Part shown: one piece after another, positions 15,486 through 26,281 of the stretch | How positions within the stretch are numbered: the first letter of the stretch is position 1 | How the letters are laid out: each line of letters begins with the position of its first letter | Source: a virus | Virus record (IMG/VR): IMGVR_UViG_3300043409_000851 | Span: 1 to 28,516 of that record | DNA length: 28,516 nucleotides | Direction: 5' to 3' (one strand) | Program-made: the position numbers and the translations under genes | Notes under the pieces: model-generated | The model's database searches: none | Told to the model about the DNA's origin: nothing | Seen by the model: only the letters and a program-made list of their open reading frames with translations

Positions 15486-16301
15486 TCAATCTCCGCAGAA
15501 GCAAGCAATATCGCCATCATCAAACAAATTATTTTGATTTATGTTGTTATCAATTATTTGTTGATAACTAGGTCGATCTTTTCTAAAAACATTGCCTTGT
15601 CCACTACCAACAATAGACGCTTCCATTTTTGCCCACCACAACGCACGTTCAGGTTCTTGACGGATCAATCCAACAACTTTTGGCAATGCTTTTAAAAAAC
15701 ACAAATCACAATTGCCGCCTACGGTTTCGCCATTAACGATTGGCAATTGCAAATCAAATGCTTGTTCATTCCAAAAATTAAATATATCTTGTTTAACAAT
15801 TTTTGCAGATACCAACGGCGTTTTGTATATAGGAATTTTTGCCGAACGCCTTGCTTCGTCATATCGTATTCCAACAAAATCATTGTTATCTTTTTCTGAA
15901 TGATCCCAACCAAGACTTTTAAGATATTTGTGAATGGTTTGTATTTTTAAAGTGCCTGTACACCATCTTTGAGCAGGATTTGGCAATTTATTATATTTTT
16001 TAATAACTGCCTCAAAAGGCTCTCCATTGCGTGATGCTGTATCAAAATTTACAACCTTAAATCTGGCTTGCGAATCTTCAAACTCAACCCAATTAATTTT
16101 CACGCCCCAATTTGTTTCGCAATCTTTAATAAATTGCAATGTTGCATGATGTTCTTTACCTGTGTTGGCAAAGCATACTATTGCTTGGTCAGGCAATTGC
16201 CCCCCCCCAGCCTCTAAAACTTTGTAAAGCATATAGGCCGAGGTTCGCCCACCACTAAAGCTGATGCACGTTGGCTCTGTAATTTTGTATGGATTTACCA
16301 T
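15486..16301 (-). CDS. PAPS-reductase-like PP-loop protein (phage phosphoadenosine phosphosulfate reductase family)
   Basis: A 271-aa member of the adenine-nucleotide alpha-hydrolase superfamily. The PP-loop is SFSGGRTSAYML (S16-GGRTS-21), which binds and cleaves ATP or an adenylylated sulfur compound. Cysteines at 114 (RWCTGTLK), 198 and 201 (CDLC) and the end CFCGD could hold a cluster or carry sulfur. Real PAPS reductases act in sulfate assimilation, but relatives (DndC, TtcA types) modify DNA or RNA with sulfur, and the phage forms have no proven role. The gene is strongly AT-rich against its neighbours (17 G+C of 60 in 15541-15600) and carries a G9 tract encoding Gly32-34. It overlaps the helicase end by seven bases. 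Function is open: sulfur modification or anti-defence are the main options. Confidence 0.8.
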   Translation of the reverse strand: MVNPYKITEPTCISFSGGRTSAYMLYKVLEAGGGQLPDQAIVCFANTGKEHHATLQFIKDCETNWGVKINWVEFEDSQARFKVVNFDTASRNGEPFEAVIKKYNKLPNPAQRWCTGTLKIQTIHKYLKSLGWDHSEKDNNDFVGIRYDEARRSAKIPIYKTPLVSAKIVKQDIFNFWNEQAFDLQLPIVNGETVGGNCDLCFLKALPKVVGLIRQEPERALWWAKMEASIVGSGQGNVFRKDRPSYQQIIDNNINQNNLFDDGDIACFCGD

Positions 16302-21744: not shown

Positions 21745-21936
21745 ATGTTAACAATTGAGCAAATCCGAGAGTTGATGCACGATAGGTCGGTGCCTATTGT
21801 TGCGGAGTTGGCGGGGGTGCATTACAACACCCTGCTAAATATTAAAAACGGTGTAAACAAGAATCCCTCCTATGAAGTGATTAAGAAATTGTCTGAGTAT
21901 TTTCAGCAAAAAGGGGAACTAGATGCACATAGATAA
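21745..21936 (+). CDS. Small HTH (Cro/XRE-like) regulator
   Basis: A 63-aa protein that is nearly all helix-turn-helix: IEQIRELMHDRSVPIVAELAGVHYNTLLNIKNGVNKNPSYEVIKKLSEYF, with VAELAGVHYNTLLNIKNG as the turn and recognition helix. It lies beside a divergent promoter and inverted-repeat operator and probably represses the early operon and itself. It has the Cro-like size, without a cI-type C-terminal protease/dimer domain. No opposite-strand repressor or integrase is in the window, so this does not establish a temperate life cycle. Ribosome site is AAAGGTG. Confidence 0.8.
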   Translation: MLTIEQIRELMHDRSVPIVAELAGVHYNTLLNIKNGVNKNPSYEVIKKLSEYFQQKGELDAHR

Positions 21937-22108
21937 AGAGTTGAGCATTTATGTTGATGAAACGGCTATATCAACGGTTTTTACTAGTTATGTTGATCTT
22001 TTTGTAATTAAAAAAACTGCTGGAGAACATTCTGCGAAGATCAATTTGCCCTTAAAAGAAGCAATTGAACTCCGTGACTTTTTAAATTATTGCTATCCCA
22101 AACCATGA
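21923..22108 (+). CDS. Hypothetical protein between HTH and replication genes (61 aa)
   Basis: ATG 21923 lies inside the end of the HTH gene and has an AGGGG site just upstream. The product (MHIDKELSIYVDETAISTVFTSYVDLFVIKKTAGEHSAKINLPLKEAIELRDFLNYCYPKP) is a small beta-then-helix domain. It has no recognised motif. Its stop overlaps the replication protein start by four bases (ATGA). Gene position suggests a regulatory or replication-accessory role. Confidence 0.65.
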   Translation: MHIDKELSIYVDETAISTVFTSYVDLFVIKKTAGEHSAKINLPLKEAIELRDFLNYCYPKP

Positions 22109-24111
22109 GCCTCCCTATGACAACAACAACAAAACTTGAGGCAGCGCTAACCTATGCGTCTTGGGGTTGGCCAGTATTTCCCTTGGTGGCGCTACGAAAG
22201 AACCCAGCGACTCCGGACGGGTTCTACAACGCCACCACGGACACGGATCAAATCAAAGAATGGTGGGCAAAAGACCCGAATTACAACATCGGCATCCCGA
22301 CTGGCGAGGTGTCAGGGATCGTGGTGTTTGACATTGACCCGCGCAATGGTGGAGACGATAGTTGGTCTACATTTCAGCACGAGTTGGGCTCTGTACCGGA
22401 CGAATCGATTTGCCAGTTGACCGCAGGGGGCGGGCAACATTATGTTGCCAAATGGTACGACGGTTTAAAAAGTTGCAAGCCTCGCCCTGGCATTGATTTC
22501 TTGTCTACCGGCAATTATTTTGTAGCTTCACCTTCGTTTGTGATCCCAACTAAAGACGGCACGATTGAAAGCGCGCGCACCTATGAGTGGGAAGTCTCAG
22601 GCGACCCGACAGACGGTGCAATGCCTTTTTCTATCCCTGAGCCTTGGCGCGTAGCTTTGGCGGTCAAAAAGGTTATTTCAAACGCTAGTGATTCACCTCT
22701 GATATGCGGTAGCCGTAACGTAGGTCTGACCGCTATGGGTGGTTTGATGCGCCACGGGGGCTTTTCGAGTGCCGAGATATATGCCGCACTATCTAAGGCC
22801 AATGAGGATCGATGCGAAATAGCATTGCCCGATTCTGAAATTCGACAGATTGCCCAAAGTGTTGCCCGTTACACGCCTGACCATGATGTGGGTGCAAGTG
22901 CAGCGCTCGGGGATGCAGCCGCTGAATCTATTTTAAATGACCAACCTAAGCACCCGCTATCCACCTTTGTTCACTACGACCTAGACAACATTCCCCCTAC
23001 CGAGTATGTGTTAGACGGCATTATGGAGGCGGGAGTGGTGTTGGTGGTTGGCTCGGCAGCATCAGGTAAGACCACCCAATTGTTGCCCCTCCTTACCCGT
23101 GTCACCCATCTATGTGACCCTGACGACCCCCTTAAACCTCTCCTTCGTCGCAAGTTGATCTGGGTGTCCGAGGATCCTAAACAGGCATTGCGAATCTTAC
23201 GATCGATGCGTGAGGCAGGGCATTTTGGCACCCATAGCGCGCGCGAGGTGTCCGAATGGATCAAGGTGGTAGCCGCCGCCCGCCTGGCACCCGAAATAGT
23301 CGCCCAGGTCGCACCGTTTTACGAAACCATGGCAGTTGACAACATTAGCGCAGACGGTGAGGTATTTAGCGCCAATCCGGTCGTGGCGTTCGATACCAAT
23401 AATAGCGTATTTGATCTTGAGAATGAGTCCGACAACAGCGAGGTCGGACGTGCCATGGCAGTTTTAAAGCAAAAGTTTAGGGGCATCCCGCTTGTGTTGG
23501 TTGGGCATATTGCCAAAGCACTTAAACGTGCCGATGTGGTCGATTTCAGCGCCCGCGGTGCCGGCGCTTGGGAGGCAGATGCTAATCAAGTTATGTACAT
23601 GATCAAAGAAGATGATGGCAAACGGTGGCTTGAGATCGTATCTGCCAAGCATCGATTTTTTGCCCGTGCGGACGGGATCTTGTTTGGTGCCAGCATCAAC
23701 GTGATCAAGACGCATGACATCTTGGGCAACAAAATAACCGAAACCCTGATCCATGGGGTGCCTGAAATTGTCGAGGCCGGCGGTAAAAGTGAGATAGCAA
23801 AAGTTAAAGAAAAAAACCGAAAGGATGCAGATCTAGCAGCCCGACAATTGCTCTTGAAGCAAAAAGAAGAGGCGGTGATATCGGCGTTGAATTTACTCAA
23901 TAAAACTGAATACCGCACTAAAACAGAATTAACTGAGCGGATCGGTGGTAATAAGAATCAAGCCCTTGAAGTGATCGACGCTATGGTTGCGCGTGGCATG
24001 ATTAACGCCATTTATACGCCATTTGAAGCCCCAATTGAGAAGCGCCCAGGGCGACATGAGGCAGGGTATGTCATGCCGAAATCGTACAAAAAAGAGTCGG
24101 ACGGTGACTAA
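22105..24111 (+). CDS. Bifunctional primase-polymerase / RepA-like helicase replication protein
   Basis: Start set at ATG 22105 by its ATGA overlap with the previous stop (a TTG at 22090 is less likely), giving 668 aa. N-terminal prim-pol domain: ASWGWPVFPL, NIGIPTG, FDIDPRNGG (catalytic Asp pair, 75-83), GGGQHY (108-113). Residues ~185-245 look like a PriCT-1 linker (GSRNVGLTAMGGLMRHGG...). C-terminal RecA-like helicase: Walker A GSAASGKTT (306-314), ISEDP-like WVSEDPK, VVAFDTNNS and VLVGHIAKA. The end (~550-668) has a winged-helix-like region. It would make primers and unwind DNA at the origin. The adjacent GTACCGCTA repeats are the likely binding site. Confidence 0.88.
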   Translation: MSLPMTTTTKLEAALTYASWGWPVFPLVALRKNPATPDGFYNATTDTDQIKEWWAKDPNYNIGIPTGEVSGIVVFDIDPRNGGDDSWSTFQHELGSVPDESICQLTAGGGQHYVAKWYDGLKSCKPRPGIDFLSTGNYFVASPSFVIPTKDGTIESARTYEWEVSGDPTDGAMPFSIPEPWRVALAVKKVISNASDSPLICGSRNVGLTAMGGLMRHGGFSSAEIYAALSKANEDRCEIALPDSEIRQIAQSVARYTPDHDVGASAALGDAAAESILNDQPKHPLSTFVHYDLDNIPPTEYVLDGIMEAGVVLVVGSAASGKTTQLLPLLTRVTHLCDPDDPLKPLLRRKLIWVSEDPKQALRILRSMREAGHFGTHSAREVSEWIKVVAAARLAPEIVAQVAPFYETMAVDNISADGEVFSANPVVAFDTNNSVFDLENESDNSEVGRAMAVLKQKFRGIPLVLVGHIAKALKRADVVDFSARGAGAWEADANQVMYMIKEDDGKRWLEIVSAKHRFFARADGILFGASINVIKTHDILGNKITETLIHGVPEIVEAGGKSEIAKVKEKNRKDADLAARQLLLKQKEEAVISALNLLNKTEYRTKTELTERIGGNKNQALEVIDAMVARGMINAIYTPFEAPIEKRPGRHEAGYVMPKSYKKESDGD

Positions 24112-24144
24112 GTATGTTTGTACCGCTAATGTACTGCTATGGCT

Positions 24145-24172
24145 TAATTTGCTCAAAAAGTGAGCAAAATTA
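24145..24172. other. Inverted repeat within the iteron region
   Basis: TAATTTGCTCA (24145-24155) faces TGAGCAAAATTA (24161-24172) over a five-base AAAAG spacer, matching except for one extra A/T. It directly follows the first two iterons and could be a protein-binding dyad or a hairpin that stops transcription from the replication gene. No T run follows on the plus strand. Confidence 0.45.
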
Positions 24173-24213
24173 GTGGTACTGCGGTACTGGTACTCCTTAA
24201 ACATACATACCCT

Positions 24214-24243
24214 GTACCGCTAACCTTGGGGGGTTAGCAGTAC
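24214..24243. other. 12-bp iteron-containing stem-loop
   Basis: GTACCGCTAACC (24214-24225) pairs with GGTTAGCAGTAC (24232-24243) through a TTGGGG loop, with a single G-T wobble. Two repeat units face each other, so this could be an operator dyad, an extruded cruciform at an origin, or the nick/priming hairpin. Confidence 0.5.
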
Positions 24244-24293
24244 ATATACAGATATTAATAGTACCGCTATGTACCGCTAGTACCGCTGTACCG

Positions 24294-24815
24294 CTAATCT
24301 AGGGTTTTAGGTTCATTAGGGGTGATATCGGTCACGTCCAAAAGCCGAGCCTCGGCTTGCTCCAAAGCTTGTACAATGGATATTTGTGTGTGTGTAACAC
24401 TCACATCGATTTTGTCCCCCCATTGTTTGGGGCGAAGCTTTGACGCCGACCATTTCCGTGCATCGATCCTGAGTCGTTGACGGTTCACCCAGGCGTTGAT
24501 TAAGGCGGGATCTAGATCGGCTGGTGGCATCTCGTCCGATAGGTCAACCAGTTCATCTGCTAAATAATCCCCGCGCTCTTCCATGCAAGCCCTGTACTTG
24601 GTTTGTAGTTCAGGGTTCTGTCTTAGTTGATACATAGCCGTGGCATAAGACATTTGCACCTCCTTGGTGGCGCTCATTAAGCTTTTGCCCTCCGTGATGC
24701 GCTCTAAGATCACCGGCCACACCTCACGCACGGTATAGGCGATATTGTGGCTACCGAGCCGCCTAAGCTTGCCGTCATAACTATGCTGTTCTTGCGCTGT
24801 CTTTGCTTTTTGCAT
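24294..24815 (-). CDS. Terminase small subunit-like protein (TerS)
   Basis: A 173-aa protein. The N-terminal part has a helix-turn-helix-like segment (EGKSLMSATKEVQMSYATAMYQLRQNPEL, residues ~42-70). The conserved terminal block RIDARKWSASKLRPKQWGDK (116-135) is the Sf6-type small terminase signature. TerS binds the packaging site and hands DNA to the TerL motor. Here it is on the opposite strand from TerL and about 2 kb from it, which is unusual. Its stop codon overlaps the last iteron. A GGGG-type ribosome site is present before ATG 24815 in the leader, which contains AT-rich DNA but no clear promoter that I can assign confidently. Confidence 0.8.
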   Translation of the reverse strand: MQKAKTAQEQHSYDGKLRRLGSHNIAYTVREVWPVILERITEGKSLMSATKEVQMSYATAMYQLRQNPELQTKYRACMEERGDYLADELVDLSDEMPPADLDPALINAWVNRQRLRIDARKWSASKLRPKQWGDKIDVSVTHTQISIVQALEQAEARLLDVTDITPNEPKTLD

Positions 24816-26103: not shown

Positions 26104-26268
26104 ATGTTGCAGCGCACAATGATCGAGCTGTGAATGTTGCATTGCACAATGCTGTTGCATTGCACAATGTTGCAGCGTCATGCTGCGTTGCAGCACAACG
26201 CTATGTTGCAGCGCAGCCATTGCAGCGCAGCAACCATGCCGCACCGCGGCAATGTTGCAGCGCAACAG
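26104..26268. repeat. TGTTGCA-GCACAATG repeat array, about 16-18 bp period
   Basis: Imperfect 16-18 base units of the form (A/C)TGTTGCA(GC/TT)GCACAATG lie at 26104, 26134, 26152, 26167, about 26185, 26203, 26219, 26236 (degenerate) and 26252. The second and third units differ at one base. The array contains dyads such as TGTTGC/GCAACA. Long open frames here on both strands (Cys/His/Gln/Ala-rich translations) are products of the repeats. Candidates: packaging site for TerS, a second origin, or a regulator-binding array before the late operon. Confidence 0.65.
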
Positions 26269-26281
26269 CCAAGGGGATGGG

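Follow-up and report, generated by a model that had tools for sequence, protein, structure and literature searches.

Among the described systems closest to the locus studied here, replication of pRN1 requires a structured element just downstream of the gene for a prim-pol/helicase/winged-helix protein, and in this system a small regulator gene, the initiator gene (orf56/orf904) and the non-coding element follow one another directly; the DNA motifs bound by the protein are unidentified according to its authors (PMC4234260). RSF1010 combines an iteron origin with a RepA-type helicase and an AEP-type primase carrying PriCT_1, distributed over the three separate proteins RepA, RepB' and RepC, of which RepC binds the iterons. 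The alpha protein of the satellite phage P4 contains an SF3 helicase, and P4 has a second repeat region, crr. Primase, helicase and an origin-binding winged helix are joined in one P4 protein that is paired with a repeat-containing origin (ori/crr; PMC4234260). In PLE, a phage-satellite RepA initiator binds three semi-palindromic iterons of ~30 bp, and origin variants differ in specificity (PMC8263062). For prim-pol proteins of the PrimPol-PV1 group with a RepA helicase and a winged helix, origin recognition by the winged helix had been put forward as a mere suggestion (PMC5862659).

The window, i.e., the whole stretch of 28,516 nucleotides analysed here, comes from a virus with a P22-like gene set. 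That assignment, already made in the sequence-only reading, fits the Sf6-type TerS, the head genes and MW202867.1, which in gene order is the closest complete relative with an annotation; there, the same Sak4/Cas4 exonuclease/helicase block is followed by cro, repA and head genes of the P22 kind. When species genomes were scanned, the prim-pol matches were all distant ones. The window also carries a phosphoadenosine phosphosulfate reductase-like gene (15486-16301) with a possible auxiliary or DNA-modification function. The genes of interest are:

21745-21936, plus strand: Cro-like HTH gene, upstream of the initiator gene
22090-24111, plus strand: initiator gene, with Prim-Pol, PriCT_1, AAA_25 (RepA-type helicase) and a predicted C-terminal winged helix
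23782-24108, plus strand: C-terminal domain of the initiator (residues 565-673), predicted long helix plus winged helix
23953-23991, plus strand: predicted recognition helix (residues 622-634)
24294-24815, minus strand: Sf6-like terminase small subunit gene, terS (PF20901, E 3e-23), the convergent neighbour

The initiator domains were assigned with Pfam (PF09250, E 5e-29; PF08708; PF13481, E 3e-11). The open reading frame opens at TTG 22090, and ATG 22105, which overlaps the upstream stop codon, is the likelier start. A full-length model of modest confidence (pLDDT 70.6) yielded structure matches to RSF1010 RepA and to the pRN1 prim-pol, and the helicase part, an AAA_25 domain, matched RSF1010 RepA and DnaB-like proteins. 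Modelled alone with AlphaFold2 (pLDDT 78.5), the C-terminal domain gave winged-helix fold matches; its sequence had no significant family in PDB or Pfam (best PDB E 0.4; weak MarR, TrmB and HTH matches). The C-terminus is thus predicted to be a winged helix on the basis of models and of fold matches at a middling Z of 8-9, a range in which unrelated winged helices rank too. The initiator gene and its homologues are mosaic: two PrimPol, two AAA and several C-domain alleles are combined in many ways, which suggests that recombination within the gene is frequent.

With an AEP, PriCT, a RepA-type ATPase and a predicted C-terminal winged helix, the protein has the composition of the PrimPol-PV1 proteins with RepA helicase (PMC5862659). 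Like pRN1, it combines a prim-pol and a predicted winged helix with an element directly 3' of the gene; pRN1, however, has an SF3 helicase and a single stem-loop of ~100 nt with no iterons, whereas the window pairs a RepA-type helicase with clear iterons. P4 differs in its TOPRIM primase and SF3 helicase, in place of which the window has Prim-Pol and AAA_25, and RSF1010 in its separate proteins. The same order of Cro-like gene, initiator and iteron array occurs in MW202867.1 and the cultured phages 1N2-2, PB15 and CGphi29, with the Cro-like gene in the same position, but their iterons are different ones and the three cultured phages have a TOPRIM-type primase domain; no origin is annotated in the stretches of the four records that we examined. 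The locus is best read, by analogy, as a cro-initiator-origin cassette like those of pRN1 and P4, but with a RepA-type helicase.

Directly after the initiator gene, the 177 bp at 24120-24296 hold seven direct and two inverted copies of GTACCGCTA, nine in all, none of which has more than one mismatch. The array thus contains multiple clustered short direct repeats in non-coding DNA and fills the 182-bp gap between the prim-pol/helicase gene (plus strand, ending at 24111) and the convergent terS on the minus strand, whose stop codon (24294-24296) is supplied by the last iteron.

24120-24128, plus strand: direct iteron, exact
24131-24139, plus strand: direct iteron, GTACTGCTA
24171-24179, minus strand: inverted iteron, one mismatch
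24179-24187, minus strand: inverted iteron, two mismatches, GTACCGCAG
24214-24222, plus strand: direct iteron in one arm of the central dyad
24235-24243, minus strand: inverted iteron, one mismatch, in the other arm of the central dyad
24261-24269, plus strand: direct iteron, exact
24271-24279, plus strand: direct iteron, exact
24280-24288, plus strand: direct iteron, GTACCGCTG
24288-24296, plus strand: direct iteron, exact; its CTA is the terS stop codon on the opposite strand

At least seven direct and up to three inverted copies in about 177 bases, the last four of them 8-10 bases apart, had been claimed from the sequence alone. This description holds if the third inverted copy is allowed two mismatches, and the last four direct iterons follow at 10, 9 and 8 bp. 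The claimed position after the prim-pol/helicase gene was likewise borne out, whereas "before TerS" had to be corrected: terS is on the minus strand and the flanking genes converge. At one mismatch or fewer, GTACCGCTA occurs 18 times in the whole window, half of these (9/18) in 24120-24296, while dinucleotide shuffles of the whole window contain 4.5 copies on average. At the density seen in the rest of the window, a stretch of 182 bp would hold 0.06 copies, corresponding to a Poisson P of ~2e-17, a naive value given that the word was picked after seeing the cluster. When the best 9-mer was picked anew in each shuffle of the region, none of 100 shuffles reached nine copies.

We collected about 80 relatives by scanning viral contigs twice. 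An array stands at the equivalent place in every close relative whose DNA continues past the stop codon, and nearly every relative has one after the initiator stop, yet the repeat sequence can be wholly different. Repeat types comprise GTACCGCTA, ATACCGCTA and CATACCGCTT and, in more distant relatives, ATACYACATG, TGGGACA, AACGTAGCA, ACCGTCACA, a GTACGG type and a CCCCC type. Conservation beside homologous prim-pol genes, a check proposed in the sequence-only reading, was thus seen in nearly all relatives, with a differing repeat word. In 55 of 67 relatives, no other 9-mer cluster of the locus equals that of the post-stop stretch; the scan's complexity filter suppresses the CCCCC family, which makes up several of the other 12 loci. 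The common layout is direct copies, inverted copies, a palindrome and then more copies, the palindrome being centred on CTTTAG, CTATAG or CTTAAG in relatives and degenerate in the window. The cultured phages 1N2-2 (an Idiomarinaceae phage), PB15 (an Alteromonas phage) and CGphi29, in which the helicase and C-terminus are homologous, also have other iterons and a palindrome after the gene, clear in 1N2-2 and PB15 and weakest in CGphi29. No array was found within reach of the homologous initiator of L063 or in the BFK20 gp43 and MW202475 relatives, and a pattern match in L020 was rejected as a chance match within a coding region.

The repeats change together with one part of the initiator. In a comparison of 17 close loci that include TerS, the distance between iterons correlated with that of the initiator C-domain (Mantel r 0.653, p 0.0002), far less with AAA_25 (r 0.20) and not with PrimPol (r 0.086), i.e., the correlation decays with distance along the initiator gene. 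In the same loci, the value was -0.027 for the N-half of TerS and 0.311 for its C-half, falling to 0.127 with the C-domain controlled; the TerS C-half and the C-domain are equally close to the array, although the former is conserved and thus a weak control. Part of the correlation arises because C-domain and iterons are neighbours. Such linkage does not explain, however, the concerted change of nearly all copies on both strands within an array. In all 19 loci compared, the recognition-helix residues match the repeat type, the helix start NKNQ going with GTACC, SKNT with ATACC, DRNK with CATACCGCTT and D[RK]AK with AATACCGCTAA. Where the iterons are ATACCGCTA, relatives have S in place of N621, which lies just ahead of the helix, and T in place of Q624; in the model, both positions fall where the predicted recognition helix starts. 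PrimPol, AAA and TerS alleles, in contrast, each occur with several repeat types. As in an iteron-type origin, the repeats therefore adjoin an initiator gene whose predicted DNA-binding domain covaries with them, and we propose the C-domain as the iteron reader.

The same comparisons bear on whether the array could be a pac site bound by TerS to begin headful packaging. It abuts terS, and pac sites that contain repeats occur in other phages, e.g., P1 and SPP1. The covariation with TerS that this would entail is lacking in its N-half, however, and one TerS type goes with several repeat types: L054-L062 have a near-identical TerS, of the type in the window, but their initiators differ in the 3' half and their arrays are of the CCCCC type. 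Moreover, the next gene in other families is not this terS, and in 1N2-2 and CGphi29 terS lies elsewhere. We thus attach very little likelihood to a pac function of this array; TerS is not part of the origin module, since its alleles do not track the iterons.

A second array was noted at 26105-26270, between the divergent GP88 gene and the gene preceding TerL. It comprises seven TGCRNYGCA-type words (TTGCAGCGCA, TTGCATTGCA) and recurs with 4-9 copies in nine relatives (L024, L025, L026, L029, L033, L036, L049, L058 and L062). Because it is present whatever iteron type these relatives have, its reader is probably not the initiator, and it is a candidate pac site or operator array.

Within the first array, three structural elements accompany the iterons:

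24143-24173, no strand assigned: AT-rich stem-loop TTTGCTCAAAAAGTGAGCAAA, in most close relatives
24194-24203, no strand assigned: degenerate palindrome TCCTTAAACA, a degenerate copy of TCCTTAAGGA of close relatives
24213-24244, no strand assigned: hairpin or dyad with one iteron per arm, a paired layout kept in close relatives

The palindrome is the counterpart of the CTTTAG- or CTATAG-centred palindrome of other families, and the AT-rich stem-loop could represent an unwinding region or a terminator. An Rfam search gave no match. In four loci of the ATACC group (L028, L009, L034 and L036), the central-hairpin iterons stay GTACC while nearly all others have changed to ATACC; L009 has one further GTACC copy outside this hairpin.

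Stem-loops and the Cro-like gene upstream of the initiator would both suit a regulatory role, with the array acting as an operator, e.g., for the Cro-like HTH protein, or as a terminator that stops both convergent transcripts. Yet two convergent genes both end at the array, which is therefore not in a promoter position, no iterons occur near the initiator promoter and no terminator-like site was found in the array region. Termination would also not need repeats that change with the initiator C-domain. Either regulatory function is therefore very unlikely.

More weight, though still little, is due to the idea that the region forms one long structured stem-loop as proposed for pRN1, the repeats merely building the stem. 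The predicted folding of each strand is much stronger than that of shuffled sequences (z -6.3 and -5.3), the alignment of close relatives contains paired changes, compensatory in the dyad at 24213-24244, and pRN1 requires its stem-loop intact (PMC4234260). Most paired changes are automatic, however, if all copies change together, and the spacing of inverted versus direct copies differs in several relatives (e.g., L035 and L030), so that a long stem is not kept in register. As a full account of the repeats we consider this unlikely; it is nevertheless compatible with an iteron origin and does not exclude it, and the region may have a structural role beside protein binding.

DnaA boxes near iterons are common, although not universal and so not strictly defining for such origins. 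In the loci of the TGGGACA family taken together, the 300 bp that follow the initiator stop contain 14 exact copies of the box TTATCCACA and the other ~430 kb only two, an enrichment beside these arrays of ~170-fold over the rest of the loci. Boxes lie ~120-190 bp past the initiator stop in L072, L074, L079, L081, L082, L085, L088, L093, L094, L096, L099 and L104. Since several overlap the start of the downstream ORF, part of their conservation could be coding; the boxes of L074 and L088 and the first box of MW202867.1 appear to be non-coding by their position ahead of the ORF. No DnaA box was found in the array of the window or of its close family. GC skew, a check suggested earlier, showed no extreme at the array, but we rejected it as an origin test because its extremes follow gene direction.

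Repeats of this kind might also serve partition, incompatibility or copy control of a phage-plasmid. The TubR centromere is iteron-like, and TubR was among the weak winged-helix matches of the C-domain. Against this, no partition ATPase or TubZ-like gene was found among the window proteins scanned, and the repeats track the replication initiator, so that we find such a locus barely credible.

Taken together, positions 24112-24298 very probably represent a phage replication origin of the iteron type, serving the phage's own one-polypeptide initiator. The iteron origin with a Rep-like neighbour suggested by the sequence-only reading thus gains support from conserved arrays, from their covariation with the C-domain and not the TerS N-half, and from the DnaA boxes of the sister family. 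The array, its conservation beside the gene, the concerted change of its copies and the covariation with the C-domain are read directly from the genomes compared; binding, melting, helicase loading, priming and the replication mode we infer by analogy with pRN1, P4 and RSF1010 (PMC4234260). The C-terminal winged helix would bind the direct and inverted copies of GTACCGCTA, and the initiator would assemble on the array. Its RepA-type helicase part might then open adjoining AT-rich or dyad DNA, the Prim-Pol part would make primers, and host polymerase would extend them. Cro-like regulator, initiator and origin may be exchanged as one cassette, within which the repeats would coevolve with the recognition helix.

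Our literature search found no description of these origins, and an S. thermophilus phage origin has reportedly been described earlier. We lean somewhat toward a broader reading, in which the loci belong to a widespread, undescribed class of phage origins. Single-protein initiators with PrimPol or TOPRIM, a RepA-type helicase and a winged helix would act at an iteron-plus-palindrome origin directly after their own stop codon, as a mobile cassette whose specificity switches via few recognition-helix residues, with the repeats changing in concert. For the origins of uncultured phages, this gives a simple rule, namely to look just past the primase-helicase stop codon. The phages offer dozens of natural recognition-helix/repeat pairs, among them near-minimal switches in which N/Q becomes S/T as G becomes A, and origin recognition is therefore directly testable. 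Repeats that change with the DNA-reading end of the enzyme may hint at how such enzymes find their start site.
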